Shown here in pieces: positions 40,667 to 47,629 of a stretch of DNA of 55,241 nt. The position numbers and the translations under genes were made by a program. A model generated the notes under the pieces. The model was not told the origin of the DNA and did not search any database. It saw only the letters and a list, made by a program, of their open reading frames with translations. Location of the stretch: contig NZ_KB899115.1 in assembly GCF_000378045.1 (NCBI RefSeq), forward strand, positions 10,467-65,707, in the 5' to 3' direction. Each line of letters opens with the position of its first letter. Within the stretch, counting starts at the first letter, position 1. This DNA is from Marinobacterium rhizophilum DSM 18822 (GTDB lineage: Bacteria; Pseudomonadota; Gammaproteobacteria; Pseudomonadales; Balneatricaceae).

Positions 40667-41119
40667 AACGATGCGTATTTAATAACCTTGATAGAAAGTC
40701 GATTTGGTCAATGCAGGAGCACGTCTTGAGCCGCTGACAGTGATACATAGATGCACCGGGTATCACGATCCTGTCCCAAAGTCGCTTGCCACAAAGCGTG
40801 GCGCGGGAACAGGCGGGTGTGGGCTCTGATCTTGCAGGGCGGTACGATGCGACGGCGAGGCCCATGACTCAAACTCTTTCACTTCTTGAACCGCACGCTG
40901 ATTTCACAGTGGCGGAGAGTGCGACTGATTCCGCGCCATTCACCTGACAGAGTTGCGGCTGTACCCCCAGTGTTTTTTGTTGGCGTGTCGGGAGGGTTGG
41001 CCGAACGTACAGGACTGGCCTGATATCAATGCTGCAAGTTCCTTGCATATCAATGCTATATTGACGGTCGATCGGCTCTAAGACGTTGATATTTTATTGA
41101 CTAGCAGGTGTACAAACGC
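40667..41119. other. Intergenic region without recognisable gene
   Basis: About 450 bases between the LysR remnant and the diguanylate cyclase gene. GC content is mixed, with no convincing frame. TTGCATATCAATGC around 41042-41055 is flanked by TATCAATGC-like text at 41026, giving a direct repeat (ATATCAATGCT) near 41025 and 41046. This may be a promoter or operator of the cyclase gene. Confidence 0.35.
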
Positions 41120-43027
41120 ATGGATGTTGCTTCGGCGCACCGGGGATCTTGTCGACAGCATTGCTTCCCGGCGTTAGTGCCTGGAGCCCCGCTCGGTTTT
41201 CAGGTTTTGCTGCGCTCGCTGGTGATGCTTTGGCTTGGCTGTTTTCCCGTGTTCGCCCTTGGCGCTGTGCTGCCGCTTCAGCCGGTGATGACCGGGGTTG
41301 TGGTGACGCCCTACCTGAGCGTGCTCGAGGATCCCGGCGGTACACTGGCTATCGAGGATGTTCGCAGCCAACCCTGGAAGGGGCAGTTTGAATCGCTGCC
41401 CAATGACAAGACCGCTTTTGGGGTGTCCGCCTCTGCCTGGTGGGTGCGGCTGGAGGCACAAAATTCCACCGGGCAGCCGGTTGCGTGGGTCCTGGATGTG
41501 CTGCACAACACCACGGACTACGTGGACAGTTATCAGATCCGCGAGGACGGCACGGTTGTCACTCAGCTGTCAGGTGACCATCGGCCCATTGCGGCAGGCG
41601 CTACCCCCAGCGAGACGTTTTACTTTTCCTATCTGACCCAGCCCGGCAGCAGCGAGATTTACCTTCGTTTCCGTTACGCGTCCGCCGGGATCATCAATGT
41701 TTACCAGGAGGCCTCAACTGTCGCGGCCTATGCGCAGGCGCAGCATCTCAAGGCCATATGGCTTGGGGTTTTCCTGGGCGGATCACTGCTGGTTATTCTC
41801 TATAATCTGTTTCTTATGCTGTCTCTGCGCGAGGCGCCGTTCTTCTGGTATCTGCTCTATGCCTCGTCAGCCACTGTTATGTATCTGGCGCTCAGCGGAC
41901 TGGGATACCGGTATCTCTGGGGCTTCAACCACACACTGGCAGACACCCTGCCGAATATCGCGGTGGCCTTGTTCTATATGCTGGCGGTGCAATTTACCCG
42001 CAGCTTCCTGGATACAAAGGTGAGAGCACGACGCTTTGATCGCCTGCTGCTGGCACTGATGCTGCTGACCGGTTGCAGCGGAGTACTTTTCCTTGTTGGG
42101 TTCAAGGCGGTCTCGATTAACCTGCTGCTGATGATCGGGCTGGCGCTGGGGCTGTTTCCGGTTCTGGGTGCCTGGCTCTGGTATCGGGGCCATCAGATCG
42201 CCAGGGGCTACACCCTGGCCTGGAGCCTGTGGTCACTGATCGTCATCAGCGCCATTTTGCGGTTTAGCGGCGTCATACCTTCCGATCCCGTTACGGTTGC
42301 CATGACCCGTTTCGGCATGATCTTTCAGAGCATTGTGCTGGCCTTTGCGCTGGCCGACCGAATCAATATCCTGCGCAATGAAAAGCTTAACGCTGAACGG
42401 CGTGAGCTGCGTGCCTCGATACGCTCGAGGGATGAACTGGAAGCCAAGGTTATGGAGCGAACCCGGGAGCTGGAAGATGCCCGCCGGCAGGCCGAGGTCC
42501 TGGCGCGCGTAGATTCCTTGACCGGCCTCTTAAACCGCCGTGCATTCTTCGAGCGCGGCAATGAGGAGGTGAATCGAGCCATACGCTACCGGCATCCGCT
42601 GTCCGTTATCATGCTGGATATTGACCGGTTTAAGGTTGTGAACGACAGCTTCGGCCACCCGGTTGGCGATCAGGTCATCAAGCAGATTGCCGGGAAACTC
42701 ACCGGCGTGTTGCGGGACTCGGACATCATATCGCGCCTGGGTGGCGAAGAGTTCGCGGTCATCCTTGTCGAAACGCAGCGTGATGCCGCCCTGGCCCTGG
42801 CTGAGCGACTGCGAGCTGAAATTGAAGACTGCACGGTAACCGCCATAAGCTCAGTGGTGAAAGTCACGTCCAGCTTTGGCATTTCGGAATTAAAACCCGG
42901 CATGGGTTCGCTGAATGAGTTGCTGGCGAGTGCGGACGCCGCCCTTTATGAAGCCAAGAGCCAGGGGCGTAACCGGGTGGTTTGCGAAGCCGAGACCGAG
43001 TTGAGTATTGCCCGCCTGCGGCAGTAA
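41120..43027 (+). CDS. 7TM-DISM diguanylate cyclase (GGDEF)
   Basis: The roughly 635-residue membrane sensor makes c-di-GMP. Domains in order: signal/anchor segment (about 25-50), a 7TMR-DISM extracellular sensory domain (about 60-190; SASAWWVRLEAQN is its mark), seven transmembrane helices (about 205-395), a coiled coil (about 400-450), and a GGDEF domain (about 455-625). The A-site is intact as GGEEF. An RxxD inhibitory site (RDSD) lies five residues before it, so product inhibition is expected. ATG 41120 has AGGTG upstream; a GTG four codons earlier is possible. Ligand unknown. Confidence 0.9.
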   Translation: MDVASAHRGSCRQHCFPALVPGAPLGFQVLLRSLVMLWLGCFPVFALGAVLPLQPVMTGVVVTPYLSVLEDPGGTLAIEDVRSQPWKGQFESLPNDKTAFGVSASAWWVRLEAQNSTGQPVAWVLDVLHNTTDYVDSYQIREDGTVVTQLSGDHRPIAAGATPSETFYFSYLTQPGSSEIYLRFRYASAGIINVYQEASTVAAYAQAQHLKAIWLGVFLGGSLLVILYNLFLMLSLREAPFFWYLLYASSATVMYLALSGLGYRYLWGFNHTLADTLPNIAVALFYMLAVQFTRSFLDTKVRARRFDRLLLALMLLTGCSGVLFLVGFKAVSINLLLMIGLALGLFPVLGAWLWYRGHQIARGYTLAWSLWSLIVISAILRFSGVIPSDPVTVAMTRFGMIFQSIVLAFALADRINILRNEKLNAERRELRASIRSRDELEAKVMERTRELEDARRQAEVLARVDSLTGLLNRRAFFERGNEEVNRAIRYRHPLSVIMLDIDRFKVVNDSFGHPVGDQVIKQIAGKLTGVLRDSDIISRLGGEEFAVILVETQRDAALALAERLRAEIEDCTVTAISSVVKVTSSFGISELKPGMGSLNELLASADAALYEAKSQGRNRVVCEAETELSIARLRQ

Positions 43028-43310: not shown

Positions 43311-44165
43311 TCAGCTCAGCCCCTCAAGCAGCCACTGGCGCGACTGCACCGCGTGCTGCAAGGCATCCGTGGGACTCTGTGCAAGGTATTTGTCATTGAA
43401 CACATCGAACACGTAATCTCCGCGGTAACCGATGCCCTGACAGTAGCGTACCAGCTCGCGGATGCTCTGGCCGTGACTGCCTTCACCGGGATAGAGGCGG
43501 GCGTGACGGGCGATATCGATCTGGTCTTCAAGCGCCGGAATGGCGCTCATGGCAAAGTCGGACAGCTGAACCAGGCTGATGCGTTCCACTGGAATTTCGC
43601 CGAGCGATTCCGGGCTCTGCGCCTGGGCCAGCAGGTGGAAGCTGTCAATCACCAGGCTGAGGTTGGTATTGCCGGCACGCCTGACGATCTCCCAGGCCAG
43701 GGGGTAGTTATGCACATCGTGGGCCCAGGCGAGGGGTTTGAAGCCGATGCGGATGCCGCGCGGTGTCGCCAGGGTTGCCAGGATACGCAAATCCGCCGCC
43801 ATTCGGTCGATATCCACCGAGGCATGGGACGAGGTGGCCGGCGTGACGATCAGCAACCGGCAGCCCAGGCGCGCCATGAGCTGCAGGTAGGTTTTGGCCA
43901 GTTCCACCTTGTACGCCATGATTCGGCCCGAATGCCCGCCAAAGTCACGTACTTCCTGCAGCGCACTGATGCGCAGGCCACTGTTGCGGATGCGCTCTAC
44001 CGAACCGCTGATACCGTCCTTGGCACCGGACAGGTCCAGCGCGCCGAGCTCGACAGCATCAAAGCCTGCCTGGGCAATTGCCTGGAGTTTTTCATCCAGG
44101 CTGCCGGTCAGGCTCAGGCTGCTGATGGAAAAGTTCGGTGCGGTGATGTTGTCGCCTTGAGTCAT
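43311..44165 (-). CDS. QuiC-like TIM-barrel protein lacking key metal ligands
   Basis: The 284-residue product aligns along its length with the TIM-barrel half of the fused QuiC at 18134 (shared SLTGSLDEKLQAIAQAGFD-type opening, LAWA-D-Y motif, VIDSFHLLA, RISLVQLSDF, LYPGEG). The four ligand positions of QuiC read K143 (for E134), D174, Q200 and D254 (for E240). A lysine in place of the first glutamate should abolish or change metal binding, so normal 3-dehydroshikimate dehydratase activity is doubtful. It starts six bases after the VOC gene stop, so the two are one operon. A sugar-phosphate isomerase-like activity on another substrate is possible. Confidence 0.8.
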   Translation of the reverse strand: MTQGDNITAPNFSISSLSLTGSLDEKLQAIAQAGFDAVELGALDLSGAKDGISGSVERIRNSGLRISALQEVRDFGGHSGRIMAYKVELAKTYLQLMARLGCRLLIVTPATSSHASVDIDRMAADLRILATLATPRGIRIGFKPLAWAHDVHNYPLAWEIVRRAGNTNLSLVIDSFHLLAQAQSPESLGEIPVERISLVQLSDFAMSAIPALEDQIDIARHARLYPGEGSHGQSIRELVRYCQGIGYRGDYVFDVFNDKYLAQSPTDALQHAVQSRQWLLEGLS

Positions 44166-44171
44166 GAATAA

Positions 44172-45011
44172 TTACCGGCCGATAAGAAAATTAACGCTGG
44201 AATCGAACTGAGGATGCTGCACCAGGTAGTGCGAATCCGGCTGCCTGCCCGACTGTGCGCCGGCAGGCTTGAGCTTCAGCCCGGCGGCGGCGAGGTTTTC
44301 CTGTGCAGTGGCCAGGTCGGTGGCGGCCAGTTCGATGCAGGATATCCCCTCGTCGGCAAGGTCTGCAGGCTCGGCATCGAGTTCGTCAAACTTCAGCTGC
44401 AGCGATCCATCCGGGCTGGTAATGGTCCCGTCTGCTGTCGTGCTGAAACCGAACAGCTGGCAAAAAAAGTCGCTCCACTCCCGAGTGCGCCCAGGACAGA
44501 CCGCGAGTGTCATCGAGCTGACCCGCTGCAGGTTCTGCGCCGGGGGCTCGTTGCCTGGCAGTGCCTTGAAATCAATATCATAAATGCTGAGATCCTCGCC
44601 GTAGCGATCTATCAGGTAGATCTGGCTACCGCCGATGCATTCCAGCGCCGGTATGTTCAGCTCCATGACACCCGCTGTCGTGTTGGCCTCCCAGGCACCC
44701 CGCGTCAGCAGGGTCTGGTAGGCGCTGTTGGCATCGCTGACGCGCAGCGCCAAAGCACAGATGGAAGTGCCATGCTGCTGTGCATAGGACTGGGCGAAAC
44801 TGCCGGGGGTGGCATTGACGATAAAGTTGATATCGCCCTGGCGGTACAGGGTGACATCCTTGCTGCGATGACGGGCACGGGCCTGAAATCCCAGTTGTTC
44901 CAGAAAGTGCACCAGCTGTGCCGGATCGGGGGCGGAAAATTCAACAAATTCCAGACCTTCAATGCGCACGGGGTGAAGATCATCGGCGGCCTTTGTTCTA
45001 GAGTCCGGCAT
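44172..45011 (-). CDS. QuiC C-terminal-like VOC protein lacking HPPD metal ligands
   Basis: The 279-residue product aligns with the HPPD-like half of fused QuiC: IEGLEFVEFSAPD, RHRSKDVTLYRQGDINFIVN, and LNIPALECIGGSQIYLIDRYGE. At the three HPPD metal positions it has S (for H429), C (for Q507) and no glutamate (VNFLIGR for FFEVVQR). It is also shorter by about 45 residues before the C terminus. It looks intact as a gene but not as a metal enzyme. I start at ATG 45011 with AGGGAGA upstream; open frame beyond that is not family-like. It is the first gene of the pair and is divergent from a GntR regulator. Confidence 0.78.
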   Translation of the reverse strand: MPDSRTKAADDLHPVRIEGLEFVEFSAPDPAQLVHFLEQLGFQARARHRSKDVTLYRQGDINFIVNATPGSFAQSYAQQHGTSICALALRVSDANSAYQTLLTRGAWEANTTAGVMELNIPALECIGGSQIYLIDRYGEDLSIYDIDFKALPGNEPPAQNLQRVSSMTLAVCPGRTREWSDFFCQLFGFSTTADGTITSPDGSLQLKFDELDAEPADLADEGISCIELAATDLATAQENLAAAGLKLKPAGAQSGRQPDSHYLVQHPQFDSSVNFLIGR

Positions 45012-45325
45012 GACTTGAATGTCTCCCTGGGTTGATTCTGATGGGGCTGCACGGCGCTGCCTGGCATTGCAGGCTGCAGTATAGGCGCTCGTTGTGCCGC
45101 CGGTGCTGTGCCTGGGTATGCCTTGTTTGCCGCTAGGGCACGACAATTGTGATGGTTAGATACTACTTAATAGATTTTGTAGTATCTATGTTTATATATA
45201 TTGTTGTTTGTAAAAAATGCCTTATTGGTTTGTAATCTGCTGCTTGGCTTTCAATTCCGTTGTAGTCAGCGTGGCAGCATTTGATAAATCATGTCGCGCC
45301 CCGATCGCAGGCCCAGGTACCCCCA
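45012..45325. promoter_or_regulatory. Divergent control region with a perfect 9-bp dyad
   Basis: AGATACTAC (45158-45166) and GTAGTATCT (45179-45187) form a perfect inverted repeat around a 12-base AT-rich spacer. The region around 45140-45240 is very AT-rich. It is a strong candidate operator for the GntR protein encoded to the right, controlling both directions. No gene is seen within. Confidence 0.6.
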
Positions 45326-46000
45326 ATGAATACCGACGACGAGAACAGCAGCACCTGTCAGCAGTTGCGTAATGATATTCTGGATGGCTCCATTGAGCCG
45401 GCCAGCAAGTTATCCATCAGTCATCTTTCCAACCGTTACGACTCCAGTGCAGCGCCCGTGCGCGAAGCCCTGTCACGCCTGGCGGCTGAAGGCCTGGTGG
45501 TTCGCAAGGGTCAGCGTGGCTACTGGGCGGCACCGGTCTCGGTGGAGGAGTTCATCGAGGTGGCACGCTTGCGGGTCATGCTGGAAGTGGATGCGTTTCG
45601 CCAGTCCATTCGCCATGGTGACCTGGATTGGGAAGCCGGCATCGCCGGTGCCCGGCACCGCGAACTGAGTGTACGCCGCAGTGCCCAGGGTCAGCTAAAG
45701 GAAAGGGCTGGTGAGCTGATTCGTGAGAACCGTCGCTTTCATCTGGCGCTGATTGCCGATTGCCCGTCCAAATGGCAACTGCGTTTTATCTCCACGCTCT
45801 ACGATCAGTCCGAGCGCTTTCGCCGCCTGTCACTGCTCTACCTGCGCGAAGGGGCCGTCGAGGTGGATGAGCATGAACTCATCATGGAGGCTGCCTTTCG
45901 CCGCGACGAGGATGCCGCCTGTGACTTGCTTCGCACGCATATCGAACATTCCAACAGTCGCGTAATAGAAACGCTGTTCCCGCAAAGGCAAGCCGAGTAG
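45326..46000 (+). CDS. GntR-family regulator (FCD type)
   Basis: The 224-residue product has a winged helix (about 8-70; LSNRYDSSAAPVREALSRLAAEG) and an FCD domain (about 80-215) with NRRFHLALIA and DEHELIMEAA, plus RTHIEHS, matching the metal-coordinating pattern. I start at ATG 45326 (MNTDDEN). It is divergent from the QuiC-like pair and upstream of the second pcaHG, so it probably controls one or both. The ligand is unknown. Confidence 0.86.
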   Translation: MNTDDENSSTCQQLRNDILDGSIEPASKLSISHLSNRYDSSAAPVREALSRLAAEGLVVRKGQRGYWAAPVSVEEFIEVARLRVMLEVDAFRQSIRHGDLDWEAGIAGARHRELSVRRSAQGQLKERAGELIRENRRFHLALIADCPSKWQLRFISTLYDQSERFRRLSLLYLREGAVEVDEHELIMEAAFRRDEDAACDLLRTHIEHSNSRVIETLFPQRQAE

Positions 46001-46292
46001 CTGTCGCCGCGGCACCGACCGCGGACCTGTTACTGATTGCGGCTATTCGACGCGCATTGAGCGCGCAGAGGCTGGTAAAGCCCGTTCGGCATCTGTTGCG
46101 AGAGCATCCTCCACCGGCTGCGATAAAGCGTTTTACGCCCCGTACCCTGTTGCTCTATATATATCGATATCGGTATCTGACGCGGCGGATTTTTCAATAG
46201 ACGTACTTTTAGTAAGGTTTATAGTGATCTCAAGGTTTAGGGAGGGGAGAGAATCTCCGCCTGCCTGATTAAAAGGATGAGAGAGGATCGCT
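46001..46292. promoter_or_regulatory. Promoter region of the second pcaHG pair
   Basis: A perfect 10-bp palindrome ATATCGATAT lies at 46161-46170, directly followed by CGGTATC, which makes a GATA-N4-TATC dyad with it. AT-rich text near 46190-46230 fits a promoter. GAGAGGATCGCT precedes ATG 46293. Confidence 0.45.
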
Positions 46293-47009
46293 ATGTCTGC
46301 TAATCGCTTTGTAGCCCGTGATCGTAACTGGCATCCGGCGGCACTGACGCCGGATTATAAAACCTCGGTGGCCCGCTCGCCGCGCCAGGCGCTGGTGTCG
46401 CTGCAGCAGTCCACCAGCTCAGAGCTGTTGGGGCCTGATTTTCGCGAGCTGAAAGTGGGTCCGCATGACAACGACCTGTTGCTGAACTTTAACCACGGCG
46501 GCTTGCCGGTGGGTGAGCGCATCATCATGAGCGGCCGCATACTGGATCAGTTCGGCAAGCCCGTGGCCGGTACCCTGGTTGAGATGTGGCAGGCCAATGC
46601 CGGCGGCCGCTACCGCCACAAGAACGACAGTTATATCGCGCCGCTGGATCCGAATTTCGGTGGCGTTGGTCGCTGCATCACCGATGAAGATGGCCGTTAC
46701 GTCTTCCGTACCATCAAGCCGGGTCCTTATCCGTGGCGTAATGGCCCGAACGATTGGCGCCCGTCCCACATCCATGTCTCGGTCATGGGGCCGTCGATCT
46801 CAACGCGTCTGATTACCCAGATGTACTTCGAGGGTGACCCGCTGATTCCGAAATGTCCCATCATCAAAACCATTGCCGATGAAGAGGCCGTCCAGACCCT
46901 GATCGGCAAGCTCGACATGGCGCTGAGCAATCCGATGGACTGCCTGGCCTATCGCTTCGATATTGTCGTGCGCGGTGGCTTGCAGACCTATTTCGAGAAC
47001 CAGGGCTGA
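46293..47009 (+). CDS. pcaH: Protocatechuate 3,4-dioxygenase beta subunit (copy 2, Pseudomonas type)
   Basis: The 238-residue beta chain has all four iron ligands: Y107 (GGRYRH), Y146 (PGPYPW), H159 and H161 (RPSHIHV). Its N terminus ([27 protein letters not shown]) is the classic Pseudomonas/Acinetobacter PcaH form, unlike copy 1. It is followed by its alpha subunit after 14 bases. No second set of lower-pathway genes lies nearby, so its product presumably joins the pca operon at 9-17 kb. It may also accept another catechol acid. Confidence 0.94.
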
Positions 47010-47023
47010 GGAGGGGAATGAAA

Positions 47024-47629
47024 ATGACTACTGAACTGCTGAAAGAAACGCCGTCCCAGACCGCTGGACCTTATGTCCATATTGGCATGCATCAGGCCGC
47101 GGCCGGCAACCCGACCCGCGATCAGGAAATCAGCGATGTGCTGGCCAAGCCCGGCGCGGATGGTGAGCATATTCGTATCGAAGGCCGTGTGTTCGATGGT
47201 AACGGCAACCTGATCAAGGACTCCTTTATCGAGGTGTGGCAGGCCAATGCTCAGGGCGAATACGACCCGGTCTATAACGTCGAAAAGCCCTTTAACAGCT
47301 TTGGCCGCACGGCAACCACCTTTGACCAGGGTGTCTGGACGCTCGATACCGTCAAGCCCGGTGCCGTGGCGCACCCGAGCGGCGCGAATATGGCGCCGCA
47401 CATCAACTTGTCGCTGTTTGCCCGGGGGATCAATATCCATTTGCAGACCCGGCTCTACTTTGCCGACGAAGCGGAGCTGAATGCCAAGTGCCCTGTGCTG
47501 AACATGATTGAGCACCCGTCCCGCCGCGAGACGCTGATCGCGCAGCGGGTGGAGGAAAACGGTCGGGTGATCTACCGCTTCGATATCCGCGTGCAGGGCG
47601 AGAACGAGACCGTATTCTTCGACTTCTGA
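47024..47629 (+). CDS. pcaG: Protocatechuate 3,4-dioxygenase alpha subunit (copy 2)
   Basis: The 201-residue alpha chain starts MTTELLKETPSQTAGPYVHIG and contains GEHIRIEGRVFDGNGNL, FIEVWQANAQGEYD and PHINLSLFARGINIH. Of two nearby ATGs I prefer 47024, nine bases from AGGAGG; 47018 would add two residues. It forms the heteromer with the copy 2 beta chain. A terminator follows at 47655. Confidence 0.93.
   Translation: MTTELLKETPSQTAGPYVHIGMHQAAAGNPTRDQEISDVLAKPGADGEHIRIEGRVFDGNGNLIKDSFIEVWQANAQGEYDPVYNVEKPFNSFGRTATTFDQGVWTLDTVKPGAVAHPSGANMAPHINLSLFARGINIHLQTRLYFADEAELNAKCPVLNMIEHPSRRETLIAQRVEENGRVIYRFDIRVQGENETVFFDF

Follow-up and report, generated by a model that had tools for sequence, protein, structure and literature searches.

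The window analysed here, a stretch of 55,241 nucleotides from Marinobacterium rhizophilum DSM 18822, carries two adjacent genes on the same strand, the first coding for a VOC protein and the second for a TIM-barrel protein, together with a divergent regulator gene and, elsewhere, a fused QuiC (Table 1). An earlier note on this DNA had described the two as VOC then TIM, in the order opposite to that of the QuiC domains, which the gene coordinates and strands bear out. Both frames are intact, with the ATG of the TIM-barrel gene 6 nt past the VOC stop codon. A Shine-Dalgarno-like AGGGAG lies upstream of the VOC gene and none was seen in the window sequence upstream of the TIM-barrel gene; the note's statement that both frames are open with ribosome sites thus stands for the frames and for the first site, not for the second. 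The TIM-barrel gene may be translated by coupling to the VOC gene.

Table 1. Features of the pair's locus and the fused paralogue of the same genome
Feature	Position in the window	Strand	Description
VOC gene, first of the pair	44172..45011	-	279 aa, HPPD/QuiC C-domain-like; lacks all three HPPD metal ligands and has a shortened second domain
TIM-barrel gene, second of the pair	43311..44165	-	284 aa, QuiC N-domain-like; K143/D174/Q200/D254 replacing E/D/Q/E
Perfect 10-bp inverted repeat, TAGATACTAC-N12-GTAGTATCTA	45157..45188	.	Between the VOC and GntR genes; candidate operator
GntR/FCD regulator gene, divergent from the pair	45281..46000	+	Possible later start near 45327
Fused QuiC, same genome	18134..19978	+	614 aa, 4/4 metal ligands; comparison paralogue, outside the pair

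Among the 10 intergenic regions compared, the inverted repeat has counterparts with 11-bp arms and one mismatch in two genomes (G003 and G024) and a weaker one in G001, and the remaining regions hold little or nothing by the same criterion. The pair also adjoins a gene for a 639-aa membrane protein (window 41108-43027), whose C-terminal part we take, by motif, to be a GGDEF domain; relatives of this protein are encoded within 10 kb of the pair at loci L036, L037 and L038.

Likeness to QuiC and to HPPD

The TIM-barrel protein is 35% identical to the window's own QuiC over 272 residues, a resemblance far beyond chance, and reaches 83.8 bits against Pfam PF01261 (xylose isomerase-like TIM barrel), well over the gathering score of 31.1. 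NCBIfam NF042435, with its cut-off of 1200 bits, gives 157 bits for the TIM-barrel protein and 130 bits for the VOC protein; since the window's own fused QuiC, at 631 bits, falls short too, this cut-off does not discriminate. In the comparison of a TIM-barrel model with QuiC that the earlier note had suggested, the model (mean pLDDT 86.9, pTM 0.88) finds its best structural match in the QuiC crystal structure 5HMQ (TM 0.88, 2.1 Å, 32% identity). The fold is also like that of IolI (PDB 1I60; TM 0.84), of the same PF01261 family, but identity there is 18% and the metal-ligand set is altered in the window protein.

According to PMC7442255, QuiC-type enzymes hold their metal through E134, D165, Q191 and E239, where the window protein has Lys, Asp, Gln and Asp; in an alignment to the window's own QuiC, its K143, D174, Q200 and D254 stand opposite E134, D165, Q192 and E240. 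The replacement of both Glu residues and the retention of D174 and Q200 had been read correctly in the note, with a numbering mixed from two schemes. At the further QuiC1 active-site residues given in that source (R64, L97, L136, H168, S206 and R210) the window protein has R, I, L, H, A and R, so that R73, H177 (QuiC H168) and R223 are retained and A219 stands at QuiC S206.

The VOC protein matches the N-terminal domain of HPPD (PF14696, 182 bits), aligns with HPPD across its first 180 residues and, as a structure model (pLDDT 82.3), resembles Pseudomonas HPPD (TM 0.81) ahead of 5HMQ (0.72-0.78). Against TIGR01263 it scores 112.9 bits, under the 277-bit cut-off. What separates it from bacterial HPPD (PDB 1CJX, 7XNT) is a shortened C-terminal domain and the absence of all three metal ligands, which we take to be two His and one Glu holding iron: S and C occupy the two His positions and the chain ends ahead of the Glu. 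Set against QuiC1/QsuB (5HMQ; NF042435), the fused 3-dehydroshikimate dehydratase, whose product is protocatechuate, the pair shares both folds, TIM barrel and VOC/HPPD-like, and in many genomes the neighbourhood of the same pathway, but it is encoded by two genes with VOC first instead of one chain with TIM first; its VOC protein is shorter and without a full HPPD site, and in the window's clade the first ligand is Lys or Arg and the last is not Glu.

Distribution and ancestry of the pair

Of 144 relatives, 29 have a TIM match and 24 a frame of QuiC length; the separate pair occurs in 15, each of which is also one of the 24 (Fisher 1.5e-14, kinship disregarded). Two more, G389 and G438, came to light when 390 genomes of the order were searched, which brings the total to the 17 genomes that we call the window's clade; the named relatives are Marinobacterium sedimentorum, M. 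profundum, M. nitratireducens and an Oceanospirillaceae MAG. VOC lies directly upstream of TIM on the same strand in 17/17 clade loci, and in 20/20 once three betaproteobacterial loci with Lys (see below) are counted with them as Lys/Arg loci. Within the clade, position 143 is Lys in 14 genomes and Arg in three, position 174 is always Asp, and position 200 is Gln in 14 and Arg in three. Position 254 is Asp in 12, Ser in three, Phe in one and Asn in one, never Glu, with the alignment of the Phe and Asn unsure; position 177, aligned with the QuiC active-site His, is His in eight, Gln in eight and Ser in one. K/R143, D174 and R223, which belong to the pocket, are conserved. A ligand change peculiar to this strain is thereby ruled out, as it is common to 17 genomes of the order.

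Outside the order, searches at E <= 1e-55 matched 2/369 genomes of the class and 6/398 of the phylum, the window's own included in both and all from the same class; in the two families reached via these matches, 82/250 and 7/40 genomes have a TIM match. We call this outside group betaproteobacterial because the plasmid records that carry the pair (Vitreoscilla, Azoarcus KH32C and Massilia) are Betaproteobacteria and one genome of the two-family set holds the same replicon as the Vitreoscilla filiformis plasmid. At the positions of 143, 174, 177, 200 and 254, 85 of the 90 distinct TIM sequences outside the clade read E, D, H, Q and E (the fragment G1241 left out of residue counts). Five sequences depart from this set: both G1220 and G1406 have K, D, H, Q, S; G1355 has K, D, H, Q, D; G1187 has Q, G, H, Q, E; and Azoarcus has E, D, Q, Q, D. 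The situation that the earlier note had held against its own reading, full-ligand homologues elsewhere and an alteration in this strain only, is therefore half realised: such homologues exist in many Betaproteobacteria, and the alteration is not limited to this strain.

These intact pairs also have VOC directly upstream of TIM, in 73/76 loci; an AroE-like gene lies between the two in two of the exceptions, and no VOC was found within the examined stretch of the third. On the Vitreoscilla filiformis plasmid pVF1 the genes run TRAP-AroE-VOC-TIM; aroQ is close by, and the examined stretch contains no QuiC. Pairs of this type are the window pair's nearest sequence relatives (TIM ~40-44% identity) and agree with it in gene order, but they differ in keeping the E, D, H, Q, E set, in mostly lacking fused QuiC, which occurs in 6/84 of their genomes, and in adjoining mostly TRAP/MFS, AroE and AroQ genes and seldom TctABC. 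Because their TIM proteins are overwhelmingly ligand-complete and so few of their genomes have the fused enzyme, the intact pair is probably a split 3-dehydroshikimate dehydratase of bacteria without fused QuiC. In the plasmid records examined this probable two-gene enzyme is annotated as 4-hydroxyphenylpyruvate dioxygenase and sugar phosphate isomerase/epimerase; for a split or betaproteobacterial dehydratase, a small search of open-licence papers yielded only fused QuiC1/QsuB or unrelated work.

The pair had been taken in the note for the two halves of QuiC, separated. The trees contradict this: QuiC N-domains form one group (100/100 in the careful TIM tree) and the window's clade another (100/99), the pair's TIM standing apart from QuiC N-domains in all TIM trees and within the VOC-then-TIM lineage. 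In the VOC tree (short search, unrooted) QuiC C-domains are likewise apart (100), and HPPD, the intact VOCs and the clade VOCs with Azoarcus make up separate groups whose branching order is unresolved. An origin of the pair by QuiC fission is thus ruled out, and the reversed order is, as judged from these trees, a property of an entire separate lineage. Azoarcus TIM falls beside the window's clade (97/88), a placement that is unsure because its branch is long. The three betaproteobacterial Lys rows fall inside the betaproteobacterial group (99/95 for the set holding them), and a tree constrained to join them to the window's clade is rejected (AU p 0.0028; this grouping was picked with the first tree already known). 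Lys therefore arose at least twice. The divergent, long-branch G052 and G064 were left out of two of the TIM trees, the careful one among them, G996 and one QuiC row out of the careful one, and many intact rows were thinned at random. We regard this history, with separate ancestry and two Lys origins, as well supported.

The missing oxygenase site turns out to be a trait of the whole lineage, since at the HPPD ligand columns (His and Glu conserved across 21 HPPD rows) intact-type VOCs have Gly and Arg in place of the two His in 79/79 and retain the Glu in 79/79. The loss of all three HPPD positions noticed earlier is therefore true of the window protein, but as a special feature of the pair it is ruled out. 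Among QuiC C-domains, 28/47, the window's own included, have Gln at the second HPPD His, and the other 19 have His. According to PMC7442255, the C-terminal VOC domain of QsuB has been proposed to act in oligomerisation and no dioxygenase activity was found for it; by analogy, we infer that the VOC subunit of the pair would be an oligomerisation or structural partner. Were it instead the catalytic part, as an oxygenase or other VOC enzyme with the TIM barrel as partner, the good conservation of its first half, its placement near HPPD by Pfam and NCBIfam and the better match of its model to HPPD than to QuiC would be accounted for. We consider this very improbable, given that the second HPPD His is found in none of the 17 clade VOCs, the first in one (G052) and the Glu in three, none having a complete metal site, and that VOC dN/dS is higher than that of TIM.

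Co-occurrence with QuiC, gene neighbourhood and selection

All 20 Lys/Arg genomes carry fused QuiC, the three betaproteobacterial ones included, as against the 6/84 with an intact pair (Fisher 1.8e-16, of which kinship explains much); among betaproteobacterial genomes with a TIM match the count is 9/89 (7/80 + 2/9). These dehydratase counts cover fused QuiC only, and the QuiC of G1406, a genome with 6% contamination, has one in-frame stop within the matched stretch. On the tree there are two independent contrasts, of which both or one go in the expected direction in most pairings; with only two origins the link cannot reach significance there.

Within 6.5 kb of TIM, the 76 intact loci contain AroE-like genes in 51, AroQ in 32, TRAP in 35, TctA/C in four and an orthologue of the window's GntR (>= 60% identity) in none. 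For the 17 clade loci the corresponding counts are 9, 1, 9, 9 and 12, with fused QuiC in 9; in the clade, some of the AroE and TRAP genes are members of the QuiC cluster adjoining the pair. Nine short loci (L088-L096), the duplicate L174 and the odd loci L103 and L170 were left out of these counts. TctABC is absent within this distance in 8/17 clade loci, the window's own among them. The GntR gene and pcaHG that the earlier note had pointed out are indeed present (45281-47629), but pcaHG lies near the pair in 2/20 Lys/Arg loci and 3/76 intact loci, which rules it out as a conserved partner; the genome comparison proposed in the note thus upholds the pair, its reversed order and Lys/Arg143, and not the adjacency to pcaHG.

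A module consisting of an IclR regulator, a FAD_binding_2 flavoprotein, NIPSNAP and another TIM barrel is found next to the Lys/Arg pair at four loci, which represent both origins (L044:237-8556, L045:11446-19884, L085:6365-13270 and L203:1132-8314); its flavoprotein belongs to NCBIfam PRK06134 and also resembles cyclohexane-carboxylate dehydrogenases. The extra TIM barrel occurs in 10/20 Lys/Arg genomes, in 5/6 intact-pair genomes with QuiC and in 6/47 without it, plus G1187; it was found in 0/6 QuiC-only genomes and is missing from the window's genome, so that the module is ruled out as a required partner.

By the NG86 method, comparison of the window with its three closest relatives gives a dN/dS of 0.055-0.060 for TIM and 0.074-0.102 for QuiC, and in genus g4 both stand at 0.035, so that TIM is as low as QuiC. 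VOC is looser, at 0.15-0.19 between close relatives (0.148 in g4). Among more distant members of the genus, values rise to 0.26 (TIM) and 0.35 (VOC), where dS is saturated. The TIM of the window's clade is under purifying selection. This bears on the view that the pair is a redundant copy slowly decaying because QuiC is present, for which one may cite the loss of ligands in QuiC-bearing genomes, the looser VOC and, in the second-origin pair G1220/G1406, dN/dS of 0.38 (TIM) and 0.27 (VOC), a case that may indeed be one of relaxation or decay in view of the TIM value. For the clade we judge such decay highly unlikely: its TIM evolves at QuiC-like rates, the frames are open in 17/17 genomes, and Lys or Arg stands at the same site in all of them. 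The contention of the earlier note that the pair is maintained and not simply decaying is upheld by these values and by the VOC-first order in every genome, and retention of the pair while a metal-binding residue became Lys in this bacterium and its relatives suggests a new job.

The altered metal site and its possible function

We propose that the pair belongs to an old two-gene form of the QuiC type, with a VOC subunit first and a TIM-barrel subunit second. The intact form (Glu, Asp, Gln, Glu and His) most likely works as the 3-dehydroshikimate dehydratase where fused QuiC is absent, with VOC in an oligomerising or structural role beside TIM. Fused QuiC is also present in the genomes of the clade; there it would have taken care of the dehydratase step, and the TIM site would have been rebuilt, with Lys or Arg at the first metal ligand and Asp, Ser or another residue for the last Glu. 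The Lys/Arg side chain would most likely sit in the place of the divalent metal, paired with the invariant Asp174, and because a positive side chain would occupy that place the protein should need no metal and act on another anionic hydroaromatic compound, which would be taken up through the neighbouring TctABC in part of the genomes, under control of the divergent GntR. A cation replacing the metal fits the Lys/Arg at the ligand, the lost or shortened acid at 254 and the retention of Asp174 and Arg223 better than a Schiff base would, since Arg also occurs and cannot form one. The loss of metal, the new substrate and a VOC-TIM complex are deductions, as is the dehydratase activity of the intact form, and for the central proposal, a TIM rebuilt into a metal-free activity on another hydroaromatic acid once QuiC covers the dehydratase step, we see the chances as evenly balanced. 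Its generalisation, that a metal dehydratase of the xylose isomerase superfamily became, at least twice and each time alongside fused QuiC, a metal-free catalyst using the ammonium group of Lys (later Arg) in a new step of hydroaromatic-acid breakdown, is put forward only tentatively. A search of open-licence papers for work on metal-independent members of the TIM superfamily found none.

The same residues allow a pseudoenzyme reading, without turnover: bound to QuiC itself or to some hydroaromatic acid, the altered pair would serve the quinate/shikimate pathway as sensor, regulator or scaffold. The presence of QuiC in every Lys/Arg genome, its position within 6.5 kb of the pair in 9/17 clade loci and the arrangement in G064 (L049:9370-12904), where QuiC, VOC and the divergent TIM are co-directional and VOC starts about 40 bp past QuiC, are in keeping with this, as are the VOC without a full metal site and the change of H177 to Gln or Ser in 9/17 clade genomes, which could mean a total loss of catalysis. 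Against it, 9/24 QuiC-bearing relatives are without the pair, which QuiC therefore does not require; the genes TctC, TctA, VOC and TIM of G030 follow in one direction, divergent from GntR, as is the pattern of catabolic genes; and the pocket K/R143, D174 and R223 is conserved, though that would suit a binder too. The transporter linkage favours an enzyme and the His loss a binder, and we hold the binder to be rather unlikely.

A third possibility is that the window pair has remained a 3-dehydroshikimate dehydratase whose metal site is unusual or weakened. It draws on this strain's D174, Q200, H177 and R223, on the acid kept at D254 and on the partly changed set of Azoarcus KH32C (Gln at H177, Asp for the last Glu), near which AroE- and AroD-type genes lie. 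We find it improbable: a Lys in place of a ligand speaks against a metal there, other clade members have Arg143, Arg200 and Ser254, and every one of these genomes has a complete QuiC.

The pair provides a natural experiment, run more than once, in what becomes of a metal enzyme after a paralogue covers its old reaction, and one whose steps are directly testable, because intact, partly changed (Azoarcus KH32C) and Lys/Arg forms coexist. As a separate observation, the altered-ligand pairs of Azoarcus KH32C plasmid pAZKH (L103:8119-15633) and of G1187 (L170) lie with genes for a CoA-transferase, a citryl-CoA lyase-like protein and a thiamine-diphosphate enzyme, as well as AroE- and AroD- or AroQ-type genes, and these clusters perhaps encode a different hydroaromatic pathway.
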